Shown: piece after piece, positions 37,901 through 63,761 of the stretch
How the letters are laid out: each line of letters opens with the position of its first letter
How positions within the stretch are numbered: position 1 is the stretch's first letter
Assembly: GCF_964355755.1 (NCBI RefSeq)
Contig: NC_092676.1
Location: 19,634,288 to 19,698,287, forward strand
Source: Antedon mediterranea
Taxonomy: Eukaryota > Echinodermata > Crinoidea > Comatulida > Antedonidae
Length of the DNA: 64,000 nucleotides
Reading direction: 5' to 3'
Program-made: the position numbers and the translations under genes
The notes under the pieces: generated by a model
Databases searched by the model: none
The model's input: only the letters and a program-made list of their open reading frames with translations
Told to the model about the DNA's origin: nothing

Positions 37901-40900
37901 TCAATTGACCAATCAAAATTTTCCCTATTGCAAAATCTTTAAATAGGGTTTGATTAAAAAGAAATACCCCTCATTTGTTTCATGGTGATGAGTCCCCTTA
38001 ATAGAGGTGTCTTTATAATCAATTTTATGGGTTCAAAACAAGGGGTTCTACTTTTTTGCTCCTATCCTAAATAATAAGTAAAAGAACATTTGTGCATGCC
38101 GAATTGCTTAGCTCATGCCCATACTGAATTTGGAGGAACTATCATAAGATATTCTAGTATGCATATGTTGATGTAAATGTTATACAGCCTCAAAGTGCAA
38201 GCTAAGTTCAGCTCGCATAGAGAAGATTCCAATAATTTGGTTGAGTAATTACTTGTATCTTTGCTTGTACCATTAACAATTTGATTAGGTTCACTCAAAG
38301 TTTATACACTGATAATTTATTTTATAGATATAATACTGGTATTGTAACCAGCAACACGTATTATGTAAAATGATAAATGCTATTTTTATTTATAAAATAG
38401 GTCAACAAAATAATTTGCTGGTATCTCCAAGCCCCAAGTCTTCAATTGGGCACTGTCATGCAAACAACAGATACAAAAATATTAAAGAATTCCCTCTAAA
38501 AATCCTTTTAGTTTCTGTTTACAAGTTTGCTTGAGCATAAAACTGTATTACAACCCCTATTAAGGGGATGTCTTTGATACCCAAATGTGTTCCTTTCTGA
38601 TAGGGGTATGTCTCCTGCCGACAGACTATTTCTCCTTAAATTCTTTTCACAAGAAAGTGACCCAAATGAGGAGTGCTAATGTATCTCCATATAATTATAT
38701 AAAAAGTGTGCTAATTTCTAATCATTTCTGTTTCATATTAACAGAGAAAATGTGTTTCATTAAAAAAAAATAAAACTCTGAATTTTGCTGCCACATTTTT
38801 ACTGTACTCAACTGTCTTCCACACACAGACTTCCCAGCTGTCAACTGGGTAATGCAACTGGATTGTCCAGAAGATGCAGACACATACATCCATCGGGCAG
38901 GAAGAACTGCAAGATATGAGAAAAATGGCGAATCGCTGCTTGTGTTATTACCATCTGAGGAGAAAGAAATGCTTCGACAACTTGTTGAGAAAAAGATTCC
39001 AATTCAAAAAATAAGGTATACCATATTTTTCCATTTTGTAAAGAGGCTTTTTAGCACATATTATTATTATACATTAGAATTTGTAAATCTATTGAATGAG
39101 ATAAATTTTCATGACTATTAATATCTCCAGCCATTGAACTAAAATACTAAGACATTGTCGTACATTAACCTAACAAATTCAATTTAGTTTTCTTACGGCC
39201 TAATCACAGTGAAACTATTTTCATTGTGAGACTTTGTTTTAGTACTGGTACTGGTACTGGTTCAAATAACCGTCTCACAGAGACATCTGGTAGCCATTGA
39301 CTTAAAGTTGGCATTTGGATGTGTATAGTAGGGTGAGTTTAGTTCAAGTGAAACGCAATTCAACGCAGTAATAATAATGTTATAATGAAGGTATAAGGAG
39401 TATATTAAAATACTGTCATCGTGGTTTTTAATTAAAACAATAGTACATTTTACATTATAGGACAAATCCAAAAAAACAGCAGTCAGTTCAGAAGTTGTTG
39501 CAGTCGTTATGTGCTGAGGACTTTGTACTAAAACAGGAGGCTCAGCGTTGCTTTATTTCTTACATTAAGTCTGTCTACCTGATGAAAAACAAGCAGGTTT
39601 TCAACGTCCAATCACTGCCATTGGAAGCATTTTCATAGTAAGAAGTAGTAACTGTATTGTTAAAAATATATAGTAAAATTGTTGGGAGACAAACTCCAAT
39701 TCACATTGTGCATGATGCTGACAACATTTGAATGCAAAGCAATCTAGTACAGGTTCTACTGTGATATGATAACCAGGCTTATATGCCAATAAAGGTCTGA
39801 ACATTTTTATGGGCCTAATTATATGTGTTTACGACCTCCTCTACATAGTGATTCTTGGGGTGAACACATTTTATTAACAGTGCTTGGGAAAAAAAGAACT
39901 ATAAAATGGAAACATTTATGTTATAAATGCACCATTGTATCTAATTAAACTTTGTCAATGTATTGTACTAATTTATTTTAAGAAAGATGAAGATGACCTA
40001 TGATTAGTAATACAAATTGTTCATAAATTGATTTCAGTTCTTTAGGCCTAGCTGTACAACCAAGAGTGAGGTTCCTAAAAAGGGCAGAAAAGAGGAAAAA
40101 GGAACAGCAAATGTCAAAAAGCAGTGTACCACCAACAGTATCATCAGATCCAAAGGTTCTAAGAATCCGTAAACTTCTTCTGGATGAGGGAAGCGTCGAG
40201 ACAGGTGTGCCACCGTCAAGTCAGGAGGAAGGTGATGATACTACTTTACAAGAATCAGATGACGATTATGGTGAAGAAATTCGTAAATTTAACCTAAAAG
40301 CCAGCAGAGATGCTGAAAATGAACCGACAGCTGATGATGAGAATGGTGAAGATTCAAATCAAAATGAAGAGGAAAGTGATGAGGAAAATGATGGTACCAA
40401 AGATGTACCTACAACAGAGGGGAATGAAAATGAACGTATAAGTTTTGAAGCAAAAACCTTTGAATCTAGTGATGAGGAAGATGAAGATAATTTGTTTACT
40501 GTAAAACAAAAAGACGTTTTTGGGACTAAAACTTATGAGGAGGTACAGTACAATACAAATGTTTTCTTTAATTGCTTTATAAATTCCCATGTTTCTTTCT
40601 TACTGATTTTAAAATGGATTAACCCAAATCTGAGCAGTTTATATTTAATCTGTAATATTGTATTCTTTACATTCGAGATTGTAAAAAAAAATCTAGTGTA
40701 TCCTTGCCCTTTGATTGGTTCCTATTGTATCTTGTGCGTTTCTCCTATTTTAATGATGGCCACAGTATAGTATACAGGTTTTTGCAAATTCTGACTCTAA
40801 TACCCCTTTCAAATCTGCAAAAAGTTGTAACCAGGTTTGCATAGTGTGAAGACAATTTTATGGAAATTCTCTTAGAAAACTAAACTTTCTCCCAATATTT

Positions 40901-43900: not shown

Positions 43901-46900
43901 ATTTACGCCAAACCTAGCAAACTTACTGAATTTGTTAAATCAGGAAACTTTGATAAATAATGAAATAATAATTTTTAAAAATTCAACCAATTTAAGACAA
44001 TTGATGAATTGAATACTGAAATGACTTGATTTGATGATAACTATATTTAAATTAAATTGATATGAAATCACACTTGTTCAGCTACTATTTCAACGATGGC
44101 GGAAGTATGATCGACATTTGATTCCCAAAGGAGATCTTGATGTTATCTGCTTGATTCAGATACCAAGGTTGTTGAATCCTTTATATTTAATCCAATATTG
44201 TGAATGTAATAAACTTGTTAAAAGCTTTTCCATCACTGTTGGCACTGATTGACGTAATGTCTTCCTGTTTCAGGGTGGTTTTTCTTTTTGTACTTTTTAT
44301 TATTATTTAGCTGGTAATATGTTTGCTGTCTTTTATTTTACATTATTCAACGTTTAAGTAAGACTTCAACCATATGTATAATTATATGTATGGTAGAAGA
44401 TACAGTGACACACCTTTTTGACTAGATCAACAACTCGATCCCCTGAACAGCTGGATAGGGATTCGCAATTGGTTAAAACATACTATATCTGTCCACGTTA
44501 AAGATTTTTTTTTGCTTTGAAACTATGAGCTCTCTCTGTTATTCTGTTATACAAATGAATGCATTTTATTTGAAAAGCCCAACACTGTATTTTCCCCTTG
44601 GTTAAAAAAAAGAGCAAATCCCACTACAACTACTTTTCCACTTTCTCACAATCGCACATTCCCTTTTGAAATATAGGTAGTAGGACAACTTTACATTGTA
44701 TAGAATGTCTGTATAGGATAATCAAATTTTGTTGTCATCTTGTCTCTAATGTAGGTGGCAGAACAATGGCCTAAACCACAGGTAGCTAAAGAAGGTAAAG
44801 ATGATGAAGAAGAAGATGAGGGAGGCATCAACATTCAAAAGGCAAAAAGTTTTCTTCAAGAAGAGGATAAGCATGACAAAGAGCTGTTCAAACAACGAGT
44901 GCGAGAGAAACACAAGGTTTGTATTGATCCGTAATTAATAACATCAATAAGAGCCTCTTTAAAGCTCTGTCAAACTTTATGTGACAAAAAAATGTGATGT
45001 GTTCATATATGGACATGATGATGTCATATCACTACCATATTTGGGCACATCACTACCATATATGGGCACATCTTACTAGACTAGTTTGATAGTGTAGACA
45101 GAGCTTACGACCAAACAAAGGAGGAGTTTTATGTAGTTACATAATGGGTAGTGTAGACAGAGCTTACCAAACAAAGGAGGAGTTTTATGTAGTTACATAA
45201 TGAGTAGTGTAGACAGAGCTTACCAAACAAAGGAGGAGTTTTATGTAGTTACATAATGGGTAGTGTAGACAGAGCTTACCAAACAAAGGAGGAGTTTTAT
45301 GTAGTTACATAATGGGTAGTGTAGACAGAGCTTACCAAACAAAGGAGGAGTTTTATGTAGTTACATAATGGGTAGTGTAGACAGAGCTTACCAAACAAAG
45401 GAGAAGTTTTATGTAGTTACATAATGAGTAGTGTAGACAGAGCTTACCAAACAAAGGAGGAGTTTTATGTAGTTACATAATGAGTAGTGTAGACAGAGCT
45501 TACCAAACAAAGGAGGAGTTTTATGTAGTTACATAATGGGTACTGCAAAAAAAAGAAATATAAAAGCGTATTTCAAAACATGATTTTGCCCTTCCGGTTA
45601 ATACAGTTGCTGTTCATGGAATAATAACATCGTGTACTGTAATAGTACAGTTCCATGGTCACACACTAATGTTAAACTGTTCCATATGGCTCCAATTTTC
45701 CAAGGTTCTCCCCTCATCATCTGTATGTCACTTCTCATCAATTCGTTAGCGCGTCATGAGTACTCGTTACTATATCATGACATTTTGCACCATGGCATTA
45801 AGTTTCCTTGATCTTACTTTTCTGTCCCTGACCAAAAATTAAAATCTCGGTTTATGCCATCTAAGTGTTTTGGCTTTTAATGTTTCTTGAATTATTGAAA
45901 GTAATCATGAGTAATTTAGTCGCCATATTGGCATAATGTTGAAGGCCTTGGGTGTATCTACGCTAAAGGTCAAAGGTTATCTGATTCAATTGAATTGGTT
46001 TGGCTCCATAAATGGGATACTTTTTAAAAAAAGTGAGGCAAATCCAGAAAAATTAAACAGGGGAACATCTAACATGATGCTATTATTATTATTAATTATT
46101 ATGACAAATCACTTATTTATTTAAACCATAGACAAATAAGTTATTCTTCATGTTTAAACACACAAAAAACAATGTAAATAATTGTTTTAAACTGAGTAAG
46201 GAACCGTTTTCCCACATGGTGCTATGCCTAGCATTCTAGTAGCTGTGTTAATGCAGTTTCACTCATGTTAAAGCCAATTTACACAGACGATCGGGTTTAT
46301 GAATCGTCTGTCTATAGAAATATACAAAGGTGAAATATGTGATTGTCTATAATGTAACACCACTGTCAATCTTGTTGCAGGCAAAACGACTGAAAGAAAA
46401 AGAGGACAGAAGAAAGTCTAGAAAAAGGAAGGAGGACAGACATTCTGGTGATGATAGTGACGATGGAGAAGGAGGCGGAGTCATGTTGGATGTGCAGTCA
46501 GAAGATACATTTGATGTCGATCTACTACCAGACCCAGATAAACAGAAGTCATCAGAAGATGAGGAATTAGAGGAGGATGAAAAGAAAGTATCAAAAAGGA
46601 AAAAGAAAGACAAATCAGATAGGTACATACAATATAAGTTATGATTGACAACTATCCAACACTTAATGCATATTTTTGGACTGTGGGTTGGTAAATACAT
46701 AATTAAACGATAGAGAAAGATTATGTAATTCTATAGACTATTCAATAATATTTTGGCTCGTACAGTGGTGATATATTTTGTTTAACTTAGAGAAATCTTC
46801 AGCCTAAATGTATTAATATTTTTTATGGTGATTGGTTAATGGTTAGACCATCTATACATCACAGCCAATCACCAGTTCTAAACAATGTTTATTTTTGGAA

Positions 46901-49487: not shown

Positions 49488-49657
49488 AGGTTTATCGCAA
49501 ATACCTTGATTTCGCGAGAAACGTCATTCCACAATGGATAATGGGAAGGGTTTGGGAGCAATAGCGCCACCGTATAATACAAACTTTATATACTGGTGGT
49601 GGTATTGTTCCCAAACCCTTCCTATTATGCATCGCTCACGCAATTTGCGATAAACCT
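49488..49657. mobile_element. 170-bp hairpin MITE, TA target duplication
   Basis: Ends AGGTTTATCGCAAAT / AATTTGCGATAAACCT flanked by TA (49486-49487 and 49658-49659). The inner halves are also complementary (AAGGGTTTGGGAGCAATA and ATTGTTCCCAAACCCTT), so almost the full length folds. It lies in the spacer between DDX10 and the fusion gene, about 350 bp before the latter's start codon. Confidence 0.85.
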
Positions 49658-50002: not shown

Positions 50003-50207
50003 ATGGATCCAATCTTGAATCCTGATGACAAAATTGCTCGTGAAAAAGACGGTTCTTGCTGGACGAGTCTATTTGCTGGGACAATTTTACCTAATTATGG
50101 TTACGTAAACAGCATCGAGGATTGTAAAAAACTCACTGAATTTTACGCCGAAGTAACATCGTCAAAATATGTCGTTACCAAAGTTAATAAAGCTTTCGGA
50201 GAAACCG
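50003..50207 (+). CDS. Fusion gene exon 1 (residues 1-68), CARF domain start
   Basis: Encodes SCWTSLFAGTILPNYGYVNS and KLTEFYAEVTSSKYVVTK, corresponding to the W..(15)..YxGYCxSExEL..H...T..W stretch at the start of the CARF domain. Donor GTAGGC at 50208, phase 1. Confidence 0.85.
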
Positions 50208-53200
50208 GTAGGCTTTTCATCTTCATGTTTAGGTAGTCTACCTGAACTACCGCACCACCACCAATGTGCCCATCATTGCGAGGCGATGTGTAGGATGGAA
50301 TCGAGATTCATAGGCCTAGCCTAGGCTTACACTACTTCTGCCATTATACTTACTTGTGTGGTATTTGTAAGAGTATATCAACACATTGGATGGCTTTCAT
50401 TTATTTTATTTAAACTAGAGGGGCCTATATGTACTAGGCCCTAGTATAATTTTCCTTTTAATTGATTTTTTTTTTTAAATCGTACTTTCTGGCAATTTCA
50501 TTGTTTTGTATTGTAGAGTGTCACATGTGTGATGCAAAATTCAAATTTCATTTTTATTCAAATAATTTTCTTTAAAAAGTAGCCTTGTTTTAAACTAAAA
50601 TTTGTGTGATGCCAATACAATTTATATCGAGAAGTAGTAGAAGGGAAATGAGGCAATCTCTATACTACTAATTACTGTTGTCACTAAACTCTTTTGGATT
50701 GTACAATGTGCTTTTAATGTGACTGTATAAGTACAAAAATAAATTCTTTTCAGATTTCAAAAGAGAACCACATCGTCTTACATGGGAATTTAAATCATGC
50801 GATAGCCAGGGAATGGATATTCCTTTTGATGGAGTACCGTTTATGATCGTAAGCAAGAAGATTATGAGTTGCCAGTATGGATCGGACAAGTGCATCGCAC
50901 AGAAACGTCGTTACAGACAAAAGATGGAAGTAAGTTTTGTATTAACTGTAGCAGTTAGTCGGTACAAACAGTCGTGACCAGCTGAGCGTAAAAAAAAATA
51001 ACAGCGTTTTCAGGGGATTTCACCTTTTCAGGACACCATGTTAATTAAAAAATCGTAATTCCTTTACGGATAGTTGTTTGAGAAAATAAATTACTGTGAA
51101 ATGTTCTTGAAAGATTGGCCTACATCACTGTATGATTGAAAAAAATTAGAAACATTTTTTTCAGTGCTTAAAATTTACATAGTGCTACATTACAAATATT
51201 CATATTTTTTATTGTAAATAAGTTGTGGTAAAAACAAATCGTTTTCATAAACAATAATATACAATTTAAAGGAACAAAGTAAAATTCAATCACATTTTTA
51301 TAATAGGAGCCTGGAGTTACAAAGAAGCGAAGAAACGTTGTGTTCTGCAAAAAGCGAGACTGTCCTGTTCAGATTCGATTTAGAGAAGTCATCAAGTTTC
51401 CAGACTATAAAGTAAAGTGTTCAATTTCGGTCAATTTTTTTTAAAGAAAAAAAAATGCTATGAGTTCGACTTTCATCGTCTTTTCTGTGAGAGTGTAATA
51501 TATTAGCAGTATTCTCGGGACAACATCCCTTTGTTGGGTACTGAAGGTCCTCTTAAAAAAATGGTTTTACTATATAAAAAATTTGGATACGTGTACATTT
51601 TCTGCAAACATGTAGTTTTGTTAGTTAAATCTACAGCTATTACGTCCCTATCCTTCCCAAATTATTGTAAAATTTGATTTTAACCAAGCAAATGGAAATA
51701 AAAATTACATTTAAGGGTTGATAAATTTAGCAATTAATAAATTTGTAAATTCTGAAATCGAATCAAATTGCCAAATTCATGATATCGTATTTCTTAAAAA
51801 GTGGCACTGGCGTTTAAATTAATTTGTTATCCTTGGAAAAATTGCAGCAACTGTTCTTATAATAAGCATGTTTTATATATATGTGGAGCCTGTTATGTAG
51901 GCCTACTGTAAAACAAGGTTAAACATGGTATATATTCCAAAAAAATACCTCCTATTTAGGAGGATACTTTGGAACCCAAAAAGGGATGTCTCCTGATTAT
52001 TGGTTGGTTCTAGTGTTAAAATATATATTGTCCCTTGTTTGTTTGACAGGTAAGTGTCCCCTTCATAATGGTGTCCCTTGAATTGGTGGTCCTAATGTAA
52101 ATTAACCAAATATGGTACTAGTGCATTCTTACACTGAATCAATTTTCAGGCTGCCATTTAAAATTTCAAGAAATTAGAGTTAATCTATTCACACGGTTAA
52201 TAACCGGTTATTTTTTGCCAGAAACATGACCTTTGAAACATGACCTTTGACTGCCACTTGTAGGAACAGAAATGAAAAAAAATATTGTTTTGTTATTTTA
52301 TAAATAATGCTACAGTATATGATTGCAAAAAAGCATCCATAATTTTTTTTTAACTGAATAATGTTTTATCAGAAATTCATATGAAAAAGTAGTTCCTAAT
52401 TTCAAGGGTTGTCGAAGGGTAGGAGTGTCCCCCACCCTCTTGGATCTGCCCTTGATATACACAATGAATTTGTGTTTCAACATGCCCTTTGACCCATTGA
52501 ATAGATTACTAGTTGAAGAAGTGAGTGATTTTGTATGCATATTAGAGAATGCATTTTCAATGGGATGTATAAAATTAAATTATGTCGTTTTTATTTTTTT
52601 AAATTATTGGTTTCTTTTTTATAAAAGGAGAAATCCTTAACCCAAATTAGTCATCGCATAGGGATATGAAATGACCTTGTTAATTGTCCACCCAGTAATA
52701 TTATATCGAATTATTAATTATTAAAATGAGATTTATTATTCAATCTGTCACTTTGATAATTATTAAGGTGCATCTGTCAAATTTAGTGGGTTTTTTTTTT
52801 TTTTAAAAAATGTAATTTTAATTTTTTTCAGTAGTTTAGCTAAGCATTATAAAAATGTTGTGTGCTGTATCAGTCCATATTTTACTATTGTGCCAATTTA
52901 TTTTGGGACGATGTTTTTACTGGCTTTACTAAATCACTCAGTAGTCATCTTAAACAGTATAATTATATTACTGTACAAGAAGTATGTGAGATATCAATTA
53001 ATTAAAGAAAAATAATGAATGTTTATATTCGTAGAATGGTACAAATAATTTCATTCAGTGATTTCTACTATTCCACACACAAACAGTCATTATTTGTATA
53101 CTATTGCATGTTCAGCTTTTTGAAAATACTGTAATGCATGACAGCAGGTTATTTAAAAATGGAAAGTGAATATGAATAGTTTTGATGGAATAAATCTTTA

Positions 53201-56200
53201 CCTCAGAACAGTAGGTGTTTTGACTAACTAGTTTGACAAAAGTGTGATGTGCCCAAATATGGTATTGATGATATCCTGTCCATATATGGGCACATTTTTT
53301 TTTGTCACATAAAGTTTTATAGTGTAGACAGAGCTTTATATTTTTAACTACAGTAGACCAAACTGAAATACTGTACTTATAAAGAAATAAGTCCTTTTTT
53401 CTTTAGGTCGTAAATGACAGTAAATACAACAGAAGAGTTCAATCACGTAAATGTCATCATGACATGAAGACTGGAGTCAATGTGCGATTTGAAAGACAGA
53501 TCTATGTTCTTCTGCCATCACCAGATGATCACCAGTTCCATCCAACCCACAAGGTATGTTTACATCTGGTGCATCTGCATGTATGTCAGAAAGAGGTGTT
53601 GCCCTGTCAATACACTACACAATACAATTTATTTGTCAGGTGCAACTGTAGTTTGGTTTCAAGGTTTTATTAATTCTAATGTCGATGCCTAATGTCAATG
53701 GCTAATTTCCAAAAAGAGCTTGACCTATCTCGTAAAAGTCCTAGACTTCTAACAAAGAAATACATAGTATGGTATGATAAAACTGATAATAATCATTCAA
53801 CAGTAAAAGAAAAACATTACAATTTTAACATACATTAAAACACCTCCTTTGGGACACCCCTATTTAGAAAGATACCTCTATTGAGGGAATACTTTCCCAT
53901 GAAATGAATTCGGGGCAACATATGTTCTTGCACTAGAGACAACCCCTGTTAAGGGGAAAATTTTCTGAGTCCTCAATAGGGATTTTACTCTATCCTAATG
54001 TCAAAATGAAGGCAAATTATTTTACTTTTTTTTAATAAACTGTATAGTACAGTAGGTTATGTCCAACACACCAGACAAAAAATTTTAACCACAGTTTGAC
54101 CCCTGAATAATGTGCTGTTTACTTATTATTAATATCAAAATTAAGGCAAATTATTTTACTGGAAAGTAGTAAAATGTCCAACACATCAGACTCAAAGTTT
54201 AACCATAGTTTGACCCCTAATCAAATTGCTGTTTACTTTTATTAATATCTGTGGTTCCAGCCAAGTTCAAGGCAGTATTACGACATGAAACCTCAGAGGA
54301 ATAGGGAAGTCAAAATATAACCTGGGTTAAGCAGGGGGTCAATGTACTATATTTTTTTTCTAATACTGTTACTGGATTATGAATTTGCACTGTTTATTTA
54401 CTAATTTGACATTTGATTTTTTTCGTTTTGTTAGCGACTTAGTTCCCAAGATCCCATTGGACAGACATCCATTTCCTGCGTTGGTCATGGATTTGTAGAA
54501 AAATGAGTTATAAAAACATTTTGACAGATTAATCTCTTTAAATGAGATAGTACTGTCATGCCATTTTATATTCAATCAAACAAAGTATAAAAACATGTAC
54601 ATATTATAAAGTCTGAGTGGGATTTCTTTATAAAATCAGAGTAAAAAAAACTCATTTGAATTGTGTTAAGTACTGTAACGGTTTAATTCTGGTGTCAAAA
54701 TTATCTTAAACACAGCACAAAAGATTTCAAAAAACATATTGTAAATTGTTTGCAGAAAGTGTTTTACTTGATAGTAGAATTACGCAAATGATCAGTTAAA
54801 ATTCTAACCGTATAATATCAAAGTTACAACATACTGTATTTAGTGACATCTATGCTTACAACAACTACAAAAAGTGTTGTAGTAAGTCTTGGTGGACATG
54901 CTTCAAAGTCCTAATAGAGGACTTTTTTGTGACCTAAAGGTGTCCCTTAATAGGAGTTCTACTGTATATTTTTTAAAGTTAACCAATGATTTTTGACAGC
55001 AGAGATATGCCGAAACTATCCTAATGAGTTAGGTTGGTGTAAAAAGTGGAACTTGGCTCTGTCATGCAATACAGGCTTAAGTTTCAGGGTTAGGCTACTT
55101 ATCCCATAAGCTATGTCTGAGAGCTTTATTAGAATGCTAAAAGATCATTGAAATTTCACCCAGGATAGGTACCCTGGTGGGCTTACAGAAGGTTAAATTA
55201 TAGGTTTCTAATTTGCAAATATATCATTAAGGATAATTTTGGAGGATATTCTCACGCACGATTGAGATGATTTTCCTAAGAGAGATTTAAATTTGATGGG
55301 TGATTTGTTTCTTCCCCCTGATTTAGTTCCTATGGGATTAGGATTGAATAAGCCTAGAAAAGTCTTCCGTTGATAAATGTTTTGTGATTGGGAATTGAAA
55401 ATAAACGTCATCTACGTATCCGTCACCATATACAAATGCGACTACCGCTGTCAGCTCTCCACTTTCTCACTTTCACAAGTTCTACCGAATATTTCAACTT
55501 TTGATTAATTAGAGTAATTAAATGCAACTTTCTATTATTCACAATATTAAAAATTCAGTTTAAATTATTTATATTTTAAGTGTATTTCTAAGATTTTGTA
55601 ACTTAGGAAACTAATTCTATTCTGAAGCTCTATCTACTACAGTATATCGAACAACAACAAAAAGTGAGATGTGCCCAAATATGGTAGTGATATGCCCAAG
55701 GTAGTGATATGCCCAAATGTGGTAATAATATGATGTCGTCATGTCCATATATGGGCACATCTCATTTTTTTAGTGTAGACAGAGCTTAATAGTAATTCCT
55801 TCAAATAATACCAGTCTGGTATTCTATGGGAGGTTGGTGCTATGGACAGGATTTGAACCCAGCTTCTGGGATTGTTAGCCAAGTGTGTTCCCAACAAAGC
55901 TACAATTTTCCATACTGACTGCAAAAAAAATCTCAATCAACCAATTTCTTTACTCTTTTAGAAGGATTTTCGAATGAGAGCAGCAGTATTGGACAAGTCA
56001 ATTGACCAACCGCAGTACAGGTTAAAGGTCATCATTAACAAGGTTTCTAGGCCAGAGCCTAAGAAAAATGAAGTGCGGATAAAAGTAGCGGCAACATCAG
56101 TGAGCAGACAGGACATTGCGAAGGTAATATACGCACATTGTTAAGATATTTGATCCTCGGTAAGCTTGGTTTGAACACCGCCCTTTATGATACCTTGCAG

Positions 56201-59200
56201 CTGTGAGGTTGATATTATAAGCAAGATAATCTATAAAAGATATATAGATAAATTTATTGGGAAATGATTTGTAATTATTAGATAAGCTTTGACATTTAAA
56301 TGGATTTATATTTGGTCAAGCTGAGTGGTTAAAATGGCTTCTTTCCAATCATTGTCAAATAAACTAAAACTATAGCTTGGAATTTAAAATTATATAATAA
56401 AAAGGCTTACAGTCTAAATCAAATTACTTTACTTTTTTTGTCCTGTAATTAAATTGGATCTAAATTTCTTTAAGATAACATCAAACTTTTGAGAAAGATT
56501 TACTTTTCGGACTTTTGTATGTATTATTGAGGTGTTTCTTTCTTATTTTATTTTATTAATTCTTTATAGAAGTGCTTTGGTGGTTTTCTTTGGGAAAGGG
56601 GCAATACAACAACATCAGAAAGCCCTATTTAGGGGGAAGGCACAACTCCATTAAGAGGCCACTTTTTGGTGTCCCCTGTAGGGAATAATTTGGTATTTTG
56701 TTGTCCAAAAGATTTAATATATTTTTGTCCTTAATGTTTTCCAGAGATATGAAAGCTGGCCATTGCCACTAGGAGTCTCCAGCATGGTAGGTACAGATGC
56801 AGCTGGTACAATAGAGAAAGTTGGTGATATCCTTCAGTCTAAGTGGAAAAAAGGTAAAAATATAATGCATGTAAATAATTTAAAAGAATAATAATAATGC
56901 GCTTTCCAACAAAATTTACATTTTACAGTTTTTAATTTATTGTTGCTCTTGTATTTTAGGTGACCGCGTAATGTGTCTTGTATCCCATGGTGGGAATGCT
57001 GAATATGCCATAGCGTTGGAGGATCATGTGATGCCCATCCCAGATTTCATGTCCTTCTCCGCTGCGGCGGCTATACCAGAGGCTTGGATTACAGCGTATT
57101 ATCTACTTCATGTACTTGGTAAGATATATTGCAAATTAGAAATGTATAATCCCAGTTCGAGTATAATTCCATTGTTATCCATTTATCGACAATAAATAGA
57201 TAAATATGCATAACCATATACCCTATCTTTGCTGAAAATAATTTGTTGAAAGTTCCAATAGCAATAATAACGATTTTATTGTTCTTATGGATCATGACGT
57301 CATTTTATTGTATTTAAAAAAACACAATTTGTATCAAAGACACAATAAATGGTTATCTTAAGAAAGACGCATGATTATCTATTTACTGTCGATTGTTAGC
57401 ATTCTGGGCCTTTAGACTCCCAATTATTCTTTGTCAGAGATTGTTCCCTTTTCTTACAATCAATTCCTTTCGATTCGATTATTTTCCTTTTGTAGTAGGT
57501 GGTATAAACAAAGGTGATGATGTACTGATACATGCAGGAGCTAGTGGTGTTGGAACGGCTCTCATTCAGCTGGTCAAATTGGCTGGTGGTCGCGCTATTG
57601 TCACCGCCAGTTCATGGAGCAAGTTGGAGATGTGCAAGAACATTGGAGCTGTAGCTGGATTCAATTACAAGGAACAAGATTTTGCACAAGAAGTGCTTAC
57701 GTTCACCAAAGGTACAGTATGCATGAATAAACCTGAATTTAGTATCAAATATAGAGGGCTCACTTTTTTATAATTAGAGTTTGGGACAATTTTCAGCATG
57801 GAATCTTGCCATGATTTATGACGTAGCGTATGGTAAATTTGTTTACTTAGGCTCTGTCTACACTATCAAAGTTACTGTGACAAATAAATGTGACATGTCC
57901 ATATAGACACTATGACGTCCTATCTCTACCTACCACATTTACATCACATTATTTCTGTTTACACTAGTTTGATAGTGTAGACAGAGCTTGTGTTATGGAA
58001 AATGGGTCGCTTTTATACAATAGCCGCCTCAAGGAGCATTGGACCGAATGTAAAAAATAAACATTCATTCGTTCTTGTTGAGTTCTTCCACCAAACATCT
58101 GTCCACAATATTGTTGTTTGTTCAGTAAAGTTATGGTTGTGTTCCCAAATATGGTACTGATATGACATCATCGTGTCCGTAAATTTTGTTATAAATTGGA
58201 TCTTTTTTTTGTATTTTATAAATAGGGTTGTAAAAAATGTTGAAAAAGATACACACAAACATAAAAAAGACTTTTAAAAACCATTAGACAAATTTAAAAA
58301 TTGTCTAATGGTTTTTGCTAGCTATTTGTTTTATGTATCTTGTTGATGTACAGTATTCTACATTATATCAATTTTATGGTTAATTTGATAAATATTTTTT
58401 ATTTGTCACTTAGATCAAGGAGTAACATTGATCTTAGACTGCGTTGGTGCGATCCACTGTGCTGGAAATGCGCAGGTAATAGCAACAGAGGGCGTGTGGG
58501 TGGTTTACGGTTTGCTAAGTGGAACCGAGACGCCTATTGATCTACTGTCGACGATTTTGAAAAAGCGTGTGAATGTTATTGGAGCATCCATGCAGAGTAT
58601 GGACAACAGTGTAAGTACTTAACCTTGGTATTATAGACTTTTATGTCCTTTGATTTGAATGAATGCTTAGTTCCAAATGAGGATGTATGTATCGAATTAG
58701 TGGTTGTTTTAGTGGTTAATGTTACATTAGTGTTTGATTGTTGCGTTACTGGGTTCTAAAGATGTATACATTATGCAAGTTCAATCAGATATGTATTTGC
58801 ATCATTGTTATATTTTGTGTGACTATATCGTTTAGGTATTAAATAAAATTTCTTAGGTTGGAAACTTATTTTAAATATGCAGTAGTACTCCTGTTTCAAG
58901 AGAACTTGACTGTTTAAAAAAAAATATCAATAATTTGGCATTTATTTACCTTACAGTACAAAGCTGAACTGGTTGCTGGATTTAAAGAGAGACTATTACC
59001 CCATTTTAGTCCTGGGACGCAGTCATCTCTGTCACCCATAATCAACAAGTTATATCCTCTAAAGTGCGTTGGTGAAGCTTATCATTTTGTTGAGTCGAAT
59101 AGCAGCATGGGAAAAGTAATCTTAACATTAGAGGATAGTTTAATCAGGGATGAACAAGCAAAACGAGAACTGTTAGAAGTGGCCAAGAGCTTTGAGGCTC

Positions 59201-60018
59201 TTGCTAATGGTGTTATTGAGGTAGATCAAGGAAAAGTGACAGTAATGCAGGATGGACAAGTCTTGGCAGCTGAAACGCTCAAACTCGGACATATCATTGG
59301 ATTGCGACAACAGAATAACGTTCTACAGAGCGAAACAGAGGAGAGTGTTCAGGTGTTACTAGCAGATAAAATGGATGTTGGATCGACCGTACACGTGACG
59401 ACAGACCAGGTGCAGGGATTGAATAGCACTAATCTTCTAGTTGGTATGCAAAATGTAGAACATGAAAACACTATAGTGTATACAGATCATGAGCGTACAT
59501 TTATTATTGAAAATGAACAAGAATCCATATCAAATGCAAAGGATGGACAATTTACACAAACTTGTGCCGATAACACGTTTATATATTCAGGATCACAACC
59601 AGATAACCAAAACCAAGTATTAAACCATGTGCAATCGATCGAACAATCAAACAGCTTTAACCAATCAGAAGCTGAGCATCTTTTAAATCAAGGTCAAATT
59701 GAAGGACAGCCACAGTTGATTGGTCATATTCAAGAGGTCGAAACCATGGATACAGATCATCTTTATCATGACCAGCCAACTCAGTCATATAACACGACTG
59801 GACAGTCAATAAACATACAAACACAACAAACTGATTTTGATGGTATGAATAGCTCAAATCAAGCACAACATATCGACTCGCAAGGAGAATTGAACCAAGG
59901 ATTTACACAAAAGGTTGTGTACACCAACCAACCTCACCATTCTGGTGATAAACAACAGGAGATAATATTTGTACTAGAAGAAGCTGTAGCAAACTCGTCC
60001 TCTGAATGTCATGGATGA
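50003..60018 (+). CDS. CARF domain fused to TP53I3-like quinone oxidoreductase (10 exons, 844 aa)
   Basis: Exons: 50003-50207, 50754-50929, 51307-51411, 53407-53553, 55962-56123, 56745-56853, 56960-57118, 57499-57711, 58414-58610, 58957-60018; all GT-AG and in phase. Residues about 10-210 match the CARF/ALS2CR8 DNA-binding region of the calcium-responsive transcription factor: YGYVNSIEDC, IPFDGVPF (91-98), CQYG (108-111), RDCP (144-147), KFPDYKV, then IYVLLP and HQFH (204-207). Residues about 214-552 are a complete medium-chain oxidoreductase closest to TP53I3/PIG3: AAIPEAWITA, the NAD(P)-binding AGASGVG (367-373), AGFNYKEQDF, LILDCVG and LLPHFS. No zinc-ligand set is evident, as in quinone oxidoreductases. 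Residues 553-844 are Gln/Asn-, Glu- and Asp-rich. The start ATG has A at -3 and G at +4. A DNA-binding, NADPH-binding regulator is inferred, not shown. Confidence 0.9.
50754..50929 (+). CDS. Fusion gene exon 2 (residues 69-127)
   Basis: Encodes LTWEFKSCD, then IPFDGVPFMIV and MSCQYGSDKC, the clearest CARF signature. Acceptor TTTTCAG, donor GTAAGT at 50930, phase 0. The phase 0 exit is compatible with both 51307 and 60554. Confidence 0.92.
51307..51411 (+). CDS. Fusion gene exon 3 (residues 128-162)
   Basis: Encodes KKRDCPVQIRFREVIKFPDYK, the CP...KFPEY block of CARF. Acceptor TTTATAATAG, donor GTAAAG at 51412, phase 0. Its counterpart in the second module is 60554-60670. Confidence 0.92.
51412..53406. 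other. Fusion gene intron 3, MITE relics
   Basis: AT-rich intron of about 2 kb. It holds a decayed member of the CAGTAAAACCCC family (about 51900-52100) and CArG-MITE copy 2 (53236-53333). No other gene seen. Confidence 0.5.
53236..53333. mobile_element. CArG-box MITE, copy 2
   Basis: GTGATGTGCCCAAATATGG to TATAGTGTAGACAGAGCTTT. Perfect CArG words: CCAAATATGG (53253-53262) and CCATATATGG (53280-53289). It ends about 75 bp before fusion exon 4. Confidence 0.65.
53407..53553 (+). CDS. Fusion gene exon 4 (residues 163-211), CARF domain end
   Basis: Encodes KCHHDMK, then RFERQIYVLLPSPDDHQFHP, matching the WYVQLP..HQYH end of the CARF domain. Acceptor CTTTAG, donor GTATGT at 53554, phase 0. Counterpart 61120-61323. 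Confidence 0.92.
55660..55790. mobile_element. CArG-box MITE, copy 3
   Basis: GAGATGTGCCCAAATATGG to TTTAGTGTAGACAGAGCTTA. CArG words CCAAATATGG (55675-55684) and CCATATATGG (55745-55754). It lies about 170 bp before fusion exon 5. Confidence 0.65.
55835..55910 (-). repeat. tRNA-derived SINE head
   Basis: The minus strand reads GTAGCTTTGTTGGGAACACAC (box A side), CTTGGCTAACAATCCC, then GCTGGGTTCAAATCCTG (box B), at tRNA spacing. No full acceptor stem; related to the SINE head at 16000-16080. Confidence 0.5.
55962..56123 (+). CDS. Fusion gene exon 5 (residues 212-265), oxidoreductase start
   Basis: Encodes FRMRAAVLDK, then PKKNEVRIKVAATSVSRQDI, the N-terminal catalytic-domain strand and VxASxxNRxD motif of quinone oxidoreductases. 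The CARF/oxidoreductase junction falls at this exon boundary. Acceptor CTTTTAG, donor GTAATA at 56124, phase 0. Confidence 0.92.
56745..56853 (+). CDS. Fusion gene exon 6 (residues 266-301)
   Basis: Encodes MVGTDAAGTIEKVGD, the GxExAGxVxxVG motif of the family. Acceptor TTTTCCAG, donor GTAAAA at 56854, phase 1. Confidence 0.92.
56960..57118 (+). CDS. Fusion gene exon 7 (residues 302-354)
   Basis: Encodes GDRVMCLVSHGGNAEYA, then MPIPDFMS, then AAAIPEAWITAYYLL, strongly TP53I3-like. It is 159 nt, exactly the length of its counterpart at 63603-63761. Donor GTAAGA at 57119, phase 1. Confidence 0.94.
57499..57711 (+). CDS. Fusion gene exon 8 (residues 355-425), NAD(P)H-binding motif
   Basis: Encodes GDDVLIHAGASGVGTALIQL (Rossmann glycine motif) and GAVAGFNYKEQDF. 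Two acceptors lie 3 bp apart (TAGTAG). The downstream one (exon from 57499) gives the length seen in TP53I3; the upstream one (57496) would add one residue. Donor GTACAG at 57712, phase 1. Confidence 0.93.
57849..57990. mobile_element. CArG-family MITE, copy 4 (both ends present)
   Basis: Left end AGGCTCTGTCTACACTATCA and right end TTTGATAGTGTAGACAGAGC are inverted repeats of about 22 bp, 142 bp overall. This copy's interior has lost the perfect CArG words. A fragment with CCAAATATGG lies at 58145-58154. Confidence 0.75.
58276..58316. repeat. Perfect 16-bp inverted repeat in intron 8
   Basis: AAAAACCATTAGACAA at 58276-58291 and its exact reverse complement at 58301-58316, with a 9-bp loop. 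It could form a hairpin in the intron about 100 bp before exon 9. Confidence 0.8.
58414..58610 (+). CDS. Fusion gene exon 9 (residues 426-491)
   Basis: Encodes LILDCVGAIHC, then GVWVVYGLLSGTE, then KKRVNVIGASMQS, the cofactor-domain strands that follow the Rossmann motif in TP53I3. Acceptor GTCACTTAG, donor GTAAGT at 58611, phase 0. Confidence 0.93.
58957..60018 (+). CDS. Fusion gene exon 10 (residues 492-844), oxidoreductase end and Q-rich tail
   Basis: Starts YKAELVAGFKERLLPHFS, then INKLYPL and MGKVILTLED, completing the oxidoreductase at about residue 552. The remaining 290 codons in the same exon encode a tail rich in Gln, Asn, Glu, Asp, Ser and Thr without recognisable domains. Stop TGA at 60016-60018. 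Such composition resembles transcriptional activation regions, but that is an inference. Confidence 0.92.
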   Translation, partial: YKAELVAGFKERLLPHFSPGTQSSLSPIINKLYPLKCVGEAYHFVESNSSMGKVILTLEDSLIRDEQAKRELLEVAKSFEALANGVIEVDQGKVTVMQDGQVLAAETLKLGHIIGLRQQNNVLQSETEESVQVLLADKMDVGSTVHVTTDQVQGLNSTNLLVGMQNVEHENTIVYTDHERTFIIENEQESISNAKDGQFTQTCADNTFIYSGSQPDNQNQVLNHVQSIEQSNSFNQSEAEHLLNQGQIEGQPQLIGHIQEVETMDTDHLYHDQPTQSYNTTGQSINIQTQQTDFDGMNSSNQAQHIDSQGELNQGFTQKVVYTNQPHHSGDKQQEIIFVLEEAVANSSSECHG

Positions 60019-60553: not shown

Positions 60554-60670
60554 CTTGAAACTGAAACAAATGAAGATGCCAAGAAAGGTTGGGTTTCCTT
60601 TATCAGCAAGAAAAGGGACTGTCCGGCTAATGTCACATTGCTGGAAATTATCAAATTTCCAGATTTTACA
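60554..60670 (+). CDS. Second module exon 3' (CARF CP...KFP block)
   Basis: Acceptor CTTTCAG, donor GTATGT at 60671, phase 0. 39 codons against 35 in exon 3, with KKRDCP and IIKFPDF kept. Confidence 0.88.
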
Positions 60671-63600
60671 GTATGTTTTGAGTTACTAATGACTAATGTT
60701 TTAACTATTTGAACTTAACAAATTTATACTGTTCTCAGAGTACATAATCATCATTAAATATGAAAATACAGAGAAACAACACGGACACACAAGCAAACCC
60801 ACACCAACCCCATTCCAATGTTGTACTGTTTGTATGACATGAATAAAGTTGAAAGTAAAGTAATCCTTTGTCACTTGGAATATAACTCCTTTATCCAAGG
60901 TGCAGATTCTGAGAGGCGGATGACCTTACTTTATTTTAGTGGAAACACAACACACTAAAATATATATAAAACTTTGTTTCTTTAATTTTTGCGCTACAGG
61001 TACATGTTCTGTCAAAAACCCTGTCAGGCCCCACTCCTGACCCCTGCAACCACTCAAAAGCACCCCCTCCTAAAGTAAAAACATGTATTATCAACTTATA
61101 GTGTGTATTTTGTTTTTAGCTTGAAGCAGACTCTGAAGATGGTAGGCGGTACGTGTCACAATACTTTTTTACCAAATTGAAGGAAGGAGATGTAAAATCT
61201 GAAAGACGTATTTATATTGCACTACCACAGCAATCTGATCACCAGTTTCATCCTTTCGAAAATGAAACCAAATATGTTCCCCGTAATAGGAGTAATGTTG
61301 AGATCCTTAATGATAAATGCAGAGTAAGTTTCATTAGCCTTCAAAGAAATCCATTTTACCTAGTTTAATGGTTATTTAATTATTTTAACAAATAAATGAA
61401 CCCAACAGAACTCATCTGTAGCAGAGAAGAAGTACTCAGTTTAGTGAAATAATATTTTGGGCTTGAGGTTATTGTCTGTTAGATTGGGCTATATGTTTCT
61501 ACTCTAGTACCTCACAGTGAAAGCAATTGCAAGCCAAATAAGGGGAAATATACTGTATACATCATGCAAGCGTACTTATTATATTTCGGCTACAATTTGT
61601 ACATCATTTTATTGTAAATGCTTTTACTTCAGTATTCCTAATGAATGTAACTTCATTTATTTTATTTTTTATTTGTATATATTGTATGAGAAACCAAAAC
61701 ACTTTCCTCTTTCCAAATTACAAATAATCTAAAAAATATCTCCAAAAAGATCTAACAATCTATTTTTGTTTTCATACCAGATTTCAAGAACCTTGAGGAT
61801 AAAACAAACAATACGGGCCGCAATAGCTTCCAAGTCTGGATCTGTAGAAGACATCAGTGTTAAACGTATCCCAATTTCGATGTATGCAAAAAGTGATGAG
61901 ATAGTTATTAATGTTTTTGCCAGTGCTGCCAATAGACAAGATATTGTAAAGGTAGTGAATGAATTGTTTATTTCTGAGGCAAAATGATAAGAATAATAAA
62001 TGTTTCAAGCATTATAACGATGGAGTGTTTTAGTTTTAAGACAGCAGCAGCCGATTTTATAAACGGTTTCTAAGACCCCAATGTATTCTATTGATCACCA
62101 AGAACTGTTCTTTAACCAGTTTTAAATTTTAGCTGACATAACACAACCATGATCTGCTTAACTCTGAAATCAATGTGAATATTTAAAAGTCAAACTTCCA
62201 CTTAAGGAAAACTGTGTTCTGGCTAATAATATCATTTCATAGTGAAGTATGTACAGTAGTTAACATTAAGTTCTATCATTAATTATTTGTTTTTTCTGTC
62301 TTTTCTATATTTTTTCAACCTTTAGGACATCTCGATAACAAGTGTGGGACAACAGATTATTGGTTGTGAAGCAGCAGGCATTGTATATGCAACAGGCAAC
62401 AAAGCTTCCAAATGGAAAAATGGTAGAGTAACACATTTTATTTTTTCACTTCAACTTCTCGGCATGAATCTTGCAGCCAATTCCAGCTGAAGCTATAATT
62501 TTCTAGTGTATAGATGAATTATGTGCACCACATTTGTCACAAGTGTATTCTGTACACCACATGTGTTTCACAATAGATACATTACCTTTATTATATGCCT
62601 AACATACCGTATTTTCCGGAGTATAGGTCGAGACTTTGTGGGAAAATTTTAATTGCAAAATCGGGGGGTCGACTTATACTCCGACCATGCGATTTTTGAA
62701 AAAAAATCAGGCCGAAAAAATATGTTCCAAAGCCGTCAGCTGTCAAGGCCCAGCAAGGTCAGTGGCCTATCATCAATCACTCACAGAAGTTTTCAATTTA
62801 ATACCTACACTGTACAAAATAATACAACTCCAACAAGTACTGGTCAATAAAATATTAATATATCACAATGACTCATTTTGATATTAATATTATGCTTTTA
62901 AGATAATTAAGAATAAATAGTTTTCTTTATGCTTCTTATTCACTCTCGCGAAAATATCGTAACACACACCACAGACGTCGGAATGTCCATGCAGCATGTT
63001 TGTTATTGCGCGATATTTTCATCTATATGCATGCGCAGTTTGGTTGTTTGTTCGTAATTACAATTACTGCGCATGTCTATTCATAAAATAAATTCTCCTT
63101 AGTCGGGTGCGTGTACATTTACAGATAACGCGATTTACAACTACTCGCCTGTACAATTTAATAAGCCTCCTAACGGAAAACTCGTTTTAATTTATTCGAG
63201 TGACGCGAAAAACATCGCTGATGGCAAGTAATGCTACATCGCTGTCATTTATTATAGGCTGGTGAAGACGGCGGCGGCGAAGTCGTCGTCATTACGTCCG
63301 TCCGATATTGATTAGGCCTACACTTTAATAATATAAACAAATAACCACATTTCATACATTTCTAACCCTCTTTGAACTTTAAAGTAAGTTGTGTTATTAG
63401 CCGATTTTGGGGGTCGATTTATATTCAGGTCATACCAAAATCAACGATATTCTAGGCCAATGTTGGGGGTCGACTTATACTTGGGTCGACCTATACTCCG
63501 GAAAATACGGTAAATCCAAGTTTAACTTTCCATGTCCATATCATGGAATTCTCCTATGTCATATGAAAACTATTCAACATTTGCATATTTTACATATTCC

Positions 63601-63761
63601 AGGTGATAGAGTGATGGCATATTTACATAGTGGAGGATGTGCTGATAAAGTTACTGTACATCAAGATCATGTGATGTCTGTTCCAACATGGATGACACTA
63701 TCATCAGCTGCTGCACTCCCTCAAGCGTGGTTGACGGCCTACAATCTGTTATGTCATGAAG
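60554..63761 (+). CDS. Second CARF-C-half/quinone oxidoreductase module (partial, 5 exons seen)
   Basis: Exons 60554-60670, 61120-61323, 61781-61951, 62326-62422 and 63603-63761 correspond one to one, with the same phases (0,0,0,1,1), to exons 3-7 of the fusion gene. They encode KKRDCPANVTLLEIIKFPDF and IYIALPQQSDHQFHP (CARF second half), then the oxidoreductase start with FASAANRQDI, IIGCEAAGIVYATG and AALPQAWLTAYNLL. The remaining exons lie beyond the window. There is no in-frame ATG in or just before 60554, and no copy of exons 1-2 in the 535 bp after the first stop. The module is therefore either spliced from exons 1-2 of the upstream gene (phase 0 to 0) or has an unrecognised leader exon. 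All splice sites are intact, which argues against a pseudogene. Confidence 0.85.
60700..60860 (+). mobile_element. LINE-like 3' end
   Basis: Non-coding stretch ending CATGAATAAAGTTGAAAGTAAAG at about 60837-60860, in the style of retroelement 3' ends. Located in the intron after exon 3'. Confidence 0.35.
61120..61323 (+). CDS. Second module exon 4' (CARF domain end)
   Basis: Encodes RRYVSQYFFTKLKEGD, then RRIYIALPQQSDHQFHP, plus a longer C-terminal extension (68 codons against 49). Acceptor TTTTTAG, donor GTAAGT at 61324, phase 0. Confidence 0.88.
61781..61951 (+). CDS. Second module exon 5' (oxidoreductase start)
   Basis: Encodes IRAAIASKSG, then DEIVINVFASAANRQDIVK, parallel to exon 5. Acceptor CATACCAG, donor GTAGTG at 61952, phase 0. 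Confidence 0.88.
62326..62422 (+). CDS. Second module exon 6'
   Basis: Encodes GQQIIGCEAAGIVYATGN, then WKNG. Four codons shorter than exon 6 upstream of the GxEAAG motif. Acceptor CCTTTAG, donor GTAGAG at 62423, phase 1. Confidence 0.88.
62607..63510. mobile_element. 904-bp TIR element, TA target duplication
   Basis: Ends CCGTATTTTCCGGAGTATAG / CTATACTCCGGAAAATACGG flanked by TA (62605-62606 and 63511-63512), consistent with Tc1/mariner-type mobilisation. Sub-terminal GGGGGTCGACTTATACT words repeat. The interior (about 62935-63310) is CpG-rich with GCATGCGCAG and TGCGCATG words but encodes no transposase. It sits in the intron between exons 6' and 7'. Confidence 0.85.
63603..63761 (+). CDS. 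Second module exon 7'
   Basis: Encodes GDRVMAYLHSGGCADKVTV, then HVMSVPTWMTLSSAAALPQAW, then LTAYNLLCHEG. It is 159 nt, the same length as exon 7. Acceptor ATTCCAG, donor GTTAGT at 63762, phase 1. The last exon visible before the window ends. Confidence 0.9.

Follow-up and report, generated by a model that had tools for sequence, protein, structure and literature searches.

Fusion of host and transposase sequences is a known route to new regulators. Described genes of this kind include KRABINER, SETMAR and CSB-PGBD3, whose host domains tend to act in the regulation of gene expression according to the available portion of the source (PMC12062965), and FHY3 and FAR1 are plant transcription factors derived from the transposases of Mutator-like elements (MULEs; PMC13306707, available portion). 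In the transcription factor CaRF (CARF, ALS2CR8), conservation is highest in the DNA-binding region, which needs no other eukaryotic cofactor to bind DNA, and an activation domain lies at the C-terminal end (PMC2877716, available portion). Here we describe a gene of the crinoid Antedon mediterranea, located in a stretch of 64,000 nucleotides (contig NC_092676.1, positions 19,634,288 to 19,698,287 of the forward strand; hereafter, the window), whose predicted product joins a domain of the Pfam family ALS2CR8 (PF15299), shared with CaRF, to a quinone oxidoreductase of the TP53I3 (PIG3) type, and which is followed by a diverged tandem copy.

As in KRABINER, SETMAR and CSB-PGBD3, a transposase-type DNA-binding domain would stand in frame with a host domain; unlike in those fusions, that domain is a metabolic oxidoreductase. 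The likeness to FHY3 and FAR1 lies in a putative regulator with a DNA-binding domain of apparent Mutator-like transposase origin, although both of those come from plants and use another kind of DNA-binding domain, and the available portion of PMC13306707 mentions no fusion to a reductase. CaRF has been described without an enzyme domain (the word "oxidoreductase" is absent from the main text of PMC2877716, as far as that text is available). Unlike CaRF, which was compared by description and not by alignment, the fusion keeps positions 8–148 of the 235 in the ALS2CR8 profile and matches transposase-borne domains of this genome above its CARF-like genes. The enzyme matches TP53I3 from end to end, with 142 of 326 residues identical and the cofactor-site residues kept; compared with TP53I3, the fusion adds a DNA-binding-type domain in front and a tail of 295 amino acids behind, and carries tryptophan at the position of Tyr51. 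A further parallel is the co-repressor CtBP, a transcriptional protein of dehydrogenase fold that is responsive to the nicotinamide cofactor NAD(H), although CtBP is not known to carry a DNA-binding domain itself and is a member of a different dehydrogenase family. The literature searched, where broader searches were weak, yielded nothing joining ALS2CR8 with a quinone oxidoreductase or with a transposase, and "ALS2CR8" is absent from the main text, as far as available, of two MULE surveys (PMC6446971, PMC13359780). Host–transposase fusions are already known, and the pairing of a reductase with an ALS2CR8 domain of the MULE type appears new as far as this literature goes.

A fused reading frame and its tandem copy

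The gene model was built directly from the raw sequence: acceptor sites were chosen by eye, and 36 donor combinations were then tested. A single open frame resulted from one of the 36, comprising ten exons that encode 845 amino acids between positions 50003 and 60018 of the window on the + strand, with GT–AG borders at all nine introns and an in-frame stop upstream of the first ATG. This bears out the ten-exon, in-phase frame proposed in an initial sequence-only reading of the window, all of whose named motifs (IPFDGVPF, CQYG, RDCP, KFPDY, HQFH and AGASGVG) fall within the one spliced frame. The exons of this gene (copy 1), in window coordinates and with the evidence for each, are as follows.

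50003..50207, + strand: exon 1, start codon and N-terminal part ahead of ALS2CR8 (splice model, upstream in-frame stop)
50754..50929, + strand: exon 2, ALS2CR8 with IPFDGVPF and CQYG, profile positions 7–52, ending in phase 0 (Pfam)
51307..51411, + strand: exon 3, ALS2CR8 with RDCP and KFPDY (splice model, Pfam)
53407..53553, + strand: exon 4, ALS2CR8 with HQFH, ending in phase 0 (splice model, Pfam)
55962..56123, + strand: exon 5, start of the TP53I3-type reductase, ATG at 55974 (splice model, Pfam, structure-entry alignment)
56745..56853, + strand: exon 6, reductase (splice model, structure-entry alignment)
56960..57118, + strand: exon 7, reductase (splice model, structure-entry alignment)
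57496..57711, + strand: exon 8, reductase, with cofactor motif AGASGVG plus S-x-x-K and FNY (splice model, alignment)
58414..58610, + strand: exon 9, reductase (splice model, structure-entry alignment)
58957..60018, + strand: exon 10, last part of the reductase, then the Gln-rich acidic tail and the stop codon (splice model, alignment)

The predicted protein consists of a partial ALS2CR8 domain (residues 75–218), the TP53I3-type reductase (about residues 212–550) and a 295-residue tail that is rich in glutamine (13%) and acidic (net charge −33); a basic stretch lies at residues 118–126. In Pfam searches the ALS2CR8 domain scored 105.6 bits against a cut-off of 28.9, ADH_N 44.7 against 23.5 (residues 246–330) and ADH_zinc_N 71.9 against 31.8 (residues 372–495), and ADH_zinc_N_2 was above its cut-off at 33.9 bits (residues 405–548). 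Exon 2 alone matched PF15299 at positions 7–52 with 44.1 bits in a genome-wide profile search. The tail had not been noticed in the sequence-only reading, nor had a second, diverged copy of the gene, which begins at 60554, 535 bases after the stop of copy 1, and extends to about 2.5 kb beyond the window end (L009). Copy 2 comprises eight exons in one frame of 513 amino acids, plus one doubtful exon of 25 codons.

60554..60670, + strand: match to copy 1 exon 3, ALS2CR8 (splice model, Pfam)
61000..61074, + strand: optional in-frame exon, doubtful (splice-like borders and open frame only)
61120..61323, + strand: match to copy 1 exon 4, ALS2CR8 with HQFH (splice model, Pfam)
61781..61951, + strand: match to copy 1 exon 5, beginning of the reductase, with the first Met in frame inside the enzyme part (splice model, Pfam)
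62326..62422, + strand: match to copy 1 exon 6, reductase (splice model)
63603..63761, + strand: match to copy 1 exon 7, reductase (splice model)
L009:189-401, 1190-1383 and 2116-2502: three more exons, past the window

On its own, copy 2 exceeded the Pfam cut-offs for ALS2CR8 (59.9 bits against 28.9, as a partial match to profile positions 57–178 of 235), ADH_zinc_N (64.4 bits), ADH_zinc_N_2 (43.7 bits) and ADH_N (38.1 bits). Placement in the CARF/ALS2CR8 family, for which a profile search had been suggested as a check, was thus recovered in both copies (105.6 and 59.9 bits). The copies are identical at 196 of 487 aligned residues and have equal intron phases at all seven comparable introns, six of which lie in an identical or adjacent alignment column; the domain-junction intron (columns 236 and 230) lies within a linker that contains gaps. 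Differences at the three codon positions (0.47, 0.34 and 0.65) may reflect constraint, although synonymous change is saturated. Within the reductase, identity to human TP53I3 is 142/326 for copy 1 and 130/319 for copy 2, and 140/329 between the copies; because the copies are about as far apart as each is from the human protein, the duplication looks old, or the copies are evolving fast. About 8 kb downstream of copy 2 exon 10, L010:335-502 is 90% identical to that exon, a partial third copy consisting of an exon fragment only.

We consider the fusion very likely to be real at the level of sequence. The join between exons 4 and 5 of copy 1 was placed by its splice sites, its phase and comparison with copy 2, and the most direct challenge to it is that the exon model wrongly links two separate neighbours, an ALS2CR8 gene and a TP53I3 gene, which were duplicated together as one block. 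In line with this, the exon 4–5 splice of copy 1 is known from sequence alone, the ATG at 55974 stands directly ahead of the enzyme domain, and the intron before it (intron 4, ~2.4 kb) holds five AATAAA/ATTAAA words. Such a misjoining is very improbable, because copy 2 repeats both domains and the intron phases and has no in-frame ATG before its enzyme half. No in-frame Met was found in the ALS2CR8 exons of copy 2, ahead of its enzyme domain or in the open frame that precedes its first exon, so a separate enzyme gene would lack a proper start, and no stop closes the ALS2CR8 exons within the spliced frame. In both copies, the ALS2CR8 domain breaks off at the same position, from which the frame runs on in phase 0 into the reductase, and the missing profile positions were found neither in the window nor in the next 30 kb. 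Exons for the missing part were also looked for in intron 4 and between the copies, and none was found. A chance open frame is ruled out by two diverged copies, each with both domains.

The two copies differ at their ends. The tail of copy 2 is short and lacks most of that of copy 1, and no counterparts of copy 1 exons 1 and 2 are visible in the 535 bases that follow the copy 1 stop. Exon 2 of copy 1 covers ALS2CR8 positions 7–52 and ends in phase 0, and copy 2 begins at profile position 57; when the two were hypothetically joined, ALS2CR8 scored 116.5 bits over positions 7–177, slightly above copy 1 itself (105.6 bits). Exons 1 and 2 of copy 1 may also be spliced to copy 2 by alternative splicing; otherwise, copy 2 may begin with a short exon of its own, or its start may have decayed.

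The reductase half and its cofactor site

Over its full length, the enzyme half aligns with structure entries 2j8z (298.7 bits) and 2oby (298.6 bits), both annotated as quinone oxidoreductase and both of which we take to be human TP53I3; the next entry, 4dup, scored 167.3 bits. The Rossmann part is the best conserved, with 75 of 149 positions identical between copy 1 and human TP53I3, versus 49 of 128 and 18 of 49 elsewhere. Together with the ADH_N and ADH_zinc_N matches and the kept cofactor residues, these alignments confirm that the enzyme is a full-length TP53I3-type oxidoreductase with an AGASGVG motif, as first proposed. The equivalents of Ser151, Ser174, Lys177, Tyr192 and Asn320 are retained in both copies, in a numbering that assumes a particular N-terminus for TP53I3 and gives 151 for the motif serine. 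The last four were set by spacing against the VAT-1 residues Ser222, Lys225, Tyr240 and, more tentatively, Asn379, which contact NADP in that protein (PMC7822847, available portion), and the PIG3 variant S151V has been reported as unable to bind NADP (PMC4712681, available portion). The kept residues and the conserved Rossmann part favour predicted cofactor binding over certain catalysis.

When the genome was searched with the reductase half, 16 matches were obtained (20 candidates scored), ten of which are exons of the two fusion copies. The other six, at 25–40% identity, lie at C7:29.2 Mb (67.6 bits, 27% over 270 positions), twice on C4 (51.4 and 46.5 bits), twice on C1 (38 and 32.6 bits) and on C8 (31 bits). 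No clear stand-alone TP53I3 was found elsewhere in this search; a diverged one is possible.

ALS2CR8 domains beside Mutator-like transposases

A genome search for ALS2CR8 returned 14 matches (24 candidates scored), which grouped into nine loci, and we examined 10 kb around each of the eight loci outside the window. A MULE transposase core was present within this distance at six of the eight (L012, L015, L016, L017, L018 and L019), with L015, L018 and L019 broken or fragmented, and was not matched in the 10 kb around L013 and L014. At L016:5129-5800 and L017:4855-5742, ALS2CR8 and a ZSWIM1-3 RNaseH-like core share one uninterrupted frame, in which ALS2CR8 scored 35.1 at L017 and 28.0, just below the cut-off of 28.9, at L016. 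The Pfam MULE model scored 36.2 at L012, 27.8 at L017 and 22.3 at L016 (cut-off 27.6), and SWIM was above its cut-off only at L017 (26.3) and below it at L012 (14.8); for the second frame at L016 no Pfam family was listed.

The locus on C6 is a structurally complete transposon of 13,224 bp (C6:9157143-9170366; L021, L012 and L020) that contains ALS2CR8 and MULE domains. Its inverted ends are identical at 25 of 25 bases and are flanked by a 10-bp direct repeat (target-site duplication), and its long inverted terminal blocks, ~93% identical, are rich in tandem repeats. A decayed relative on C3 (L018) has blocks of 883, 631 and 707 bases in common with it at 91–93%. Inverted ends and target-site duplication were tested at the C6 element, the other ALS2CR8 loci being known by domain content. 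At least one Mutator-like transposon in this genome carries an ALS2CR8 domain. Host genes, too, are named after cores of the ZSWIM1/3 type, so a host-gene identity is possible for some of the remaining ALS2CR8 loci. Among the ZSWIM1-3 RNaseH-like matches in the genome, the two with the highest scores, at C1:20159154-20159522 (121.6 bits) and C3:4290186-4290569 (75.5 bits), lie in long open frames with no listed ALS2CR8 match and are possible host ZSWIM genes. L013 (C2:9.85 Mb) and L014 (C5:1.69 Mb) are possibly CARF-like host genes, and L014 has a 397-amino-acid frame with a Gln-rich C-terminal part.

The DNA-binding half of the fusion is probably a domain of the transposase type. Outside the fusion copies, its best match was the transposase-borne domain on C6 (79.7 bits), with further transposase-borne domains on C4 and C2 at 50.1 and 41.2 bits, versus 36.2 and 34.3 bits for the two CARF-like genes on C5 and C2; the models were hand-made, partial and of unequal length and included no vertebrate CARF, which makes this comparison a lead rather than a tree. 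It is quite unlikely that this half came from a CARF-type host gene and that the locus is an ordinary host–host fusion: L013 and L014 do carry ALS2CR8 with no transposase core in the surrounding 10 kb, but the higher scores all belong to transposase-borne domains. By eye, the fusion shares its intron positions in the ALS2CR8 part with both the C6 transposase and the CARF-like gene L014, and transposase and CARF origins are therefore not separable by introns. A CARF orthologue was ruled out by the same better matches, within the limits of these models. The CARF domain of the sequence-only reading thus stood as an ALS2CR8 match above cut-off; the match is partial, and the domain appears to be not specifically CARF but a member of a wider ALS2CR8 family that in this genome lies mostly beside MULE cores.

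Neither fusion copy contains an RNaseH-like transposase core or a SWIM finger, and no such core was found in the window or the 30 kb downstream. The end sequence of the C6 transposon had no match in the window when up to three mismatches were allowed. A relation to FAR1, FLYWCH or WRKY folds is not claimed, as no such family was among the Pfam matches listed at E up to 1 or 10, and a profile built from four ALS2CR8 domains had no match among solved structures at E up to 1.

Elsewhere in the window, an upstream helicase gene, presumably DDX10-like, has DEAD and Helicase_C domains at 23221-23619 and 38774-39118. Open frames of a repeated peptide unit at 27988-29228 form a tandem repeat, as do near-identical short pieces every 56 bases at 45123-45524, the latter among the weak matches. 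Just upstream of copy 1 (~49540-49640), an inverted repeat seen by eye around GGGTTTGGGAGCAAT ... ATTGTTCCCAAACCC is perhaps a small mobile element.

A possible redox-responsive regulator

We propose, at slightly less than even confidence, that this host–transposase fusion gene works as an NADP(H)-responsive, DNA-bound regulator, and its role as a redox-responsive regulatory component is put forward equally tentatively. In this view, a TP53I3-type quinone oxidoreductase gene would have gained an ALS2CR8 DNA-binding segment of the MULE-transposase type by way of a phase-0 intron, and a tandem duplication of the fusion would have followed. The presence of both domains in one protein is strongly suggested by the gene models. 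By analogy with CaRF, the N-terminal part would bind DNA; the reductase part would dimerise and, judging from its kept residues, bind NADP(H); and cofactor occupancy or redox ratio might, more speculatively, adjust DNA binding or output, in keeping with the link between redox state and DNA binding that the sequence-only reading had suggested. The Gln-rich acidic tail of copy 1, given its composition, could recruit the transcription machinery. If copy 2 were spliced to exons 1 and 2 of copy 1, two alternative enzyme-plus-tail modules would share one DNA-binding start.

Several features weigh against this proposal. The ALS2CR8 domain of copy 1 is partial (profile positions 8–148 of 235), the oxidoreductase being complete, and copy 2 lacks both the first part of the domain and one Cys of the C-x4-C pair present in copy 1. 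The Tyr51 position is occupied by Trp in copy 1, and in copy 2 it belongs to a loop that is missing, which makes catalysis uncertain. An enzyme-only product of copy 1, starting from the exon 5 ATG, is possible. Synonymous change between the copies is saturated (pS 0.77, pN 0.41), which leaves the apparent constraint tentative, and composition is what speaks for a role of the tail.

The fused protein could instead be mainly an enzyme, its transposase-type segment serving only to bring or tether the quinone reductase to nucleus or chromatin, where it would carry out redox chemistry locally, with no control of transcription. A full-length reductase with kept cofactor residues, a basic stretch at residues 118–126 that could help nuclear entry, and a copy 2 from which most of the tail is absent would all fit such a protein, but the altered or missing Tyr51 position does not, and the long Gln-rich acidic tail of copy 1 would be superfluous for an enzyme. 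We regard this alternative as somewhat unlikely. Returning to the regulator that we favour, an extended version is unlikely in full: capture of a MULE DNA-binding domain by a TP53I3 gene would have produced an NADP(H)-gated regulator, with exons 1 and 2 alternatively spliced to two reductase modules with different tails, and the CARF family as a whole would share its DNA-binding domain with MULE transposases.

If the proposal is true, a redox-cofactor enzyme carried on a transposase-type DNA-binding domain would connect metabolism directly to DNA binding within one protein. Our findings also suggest a transposon connection for the orphan CARF transcription-factor family.

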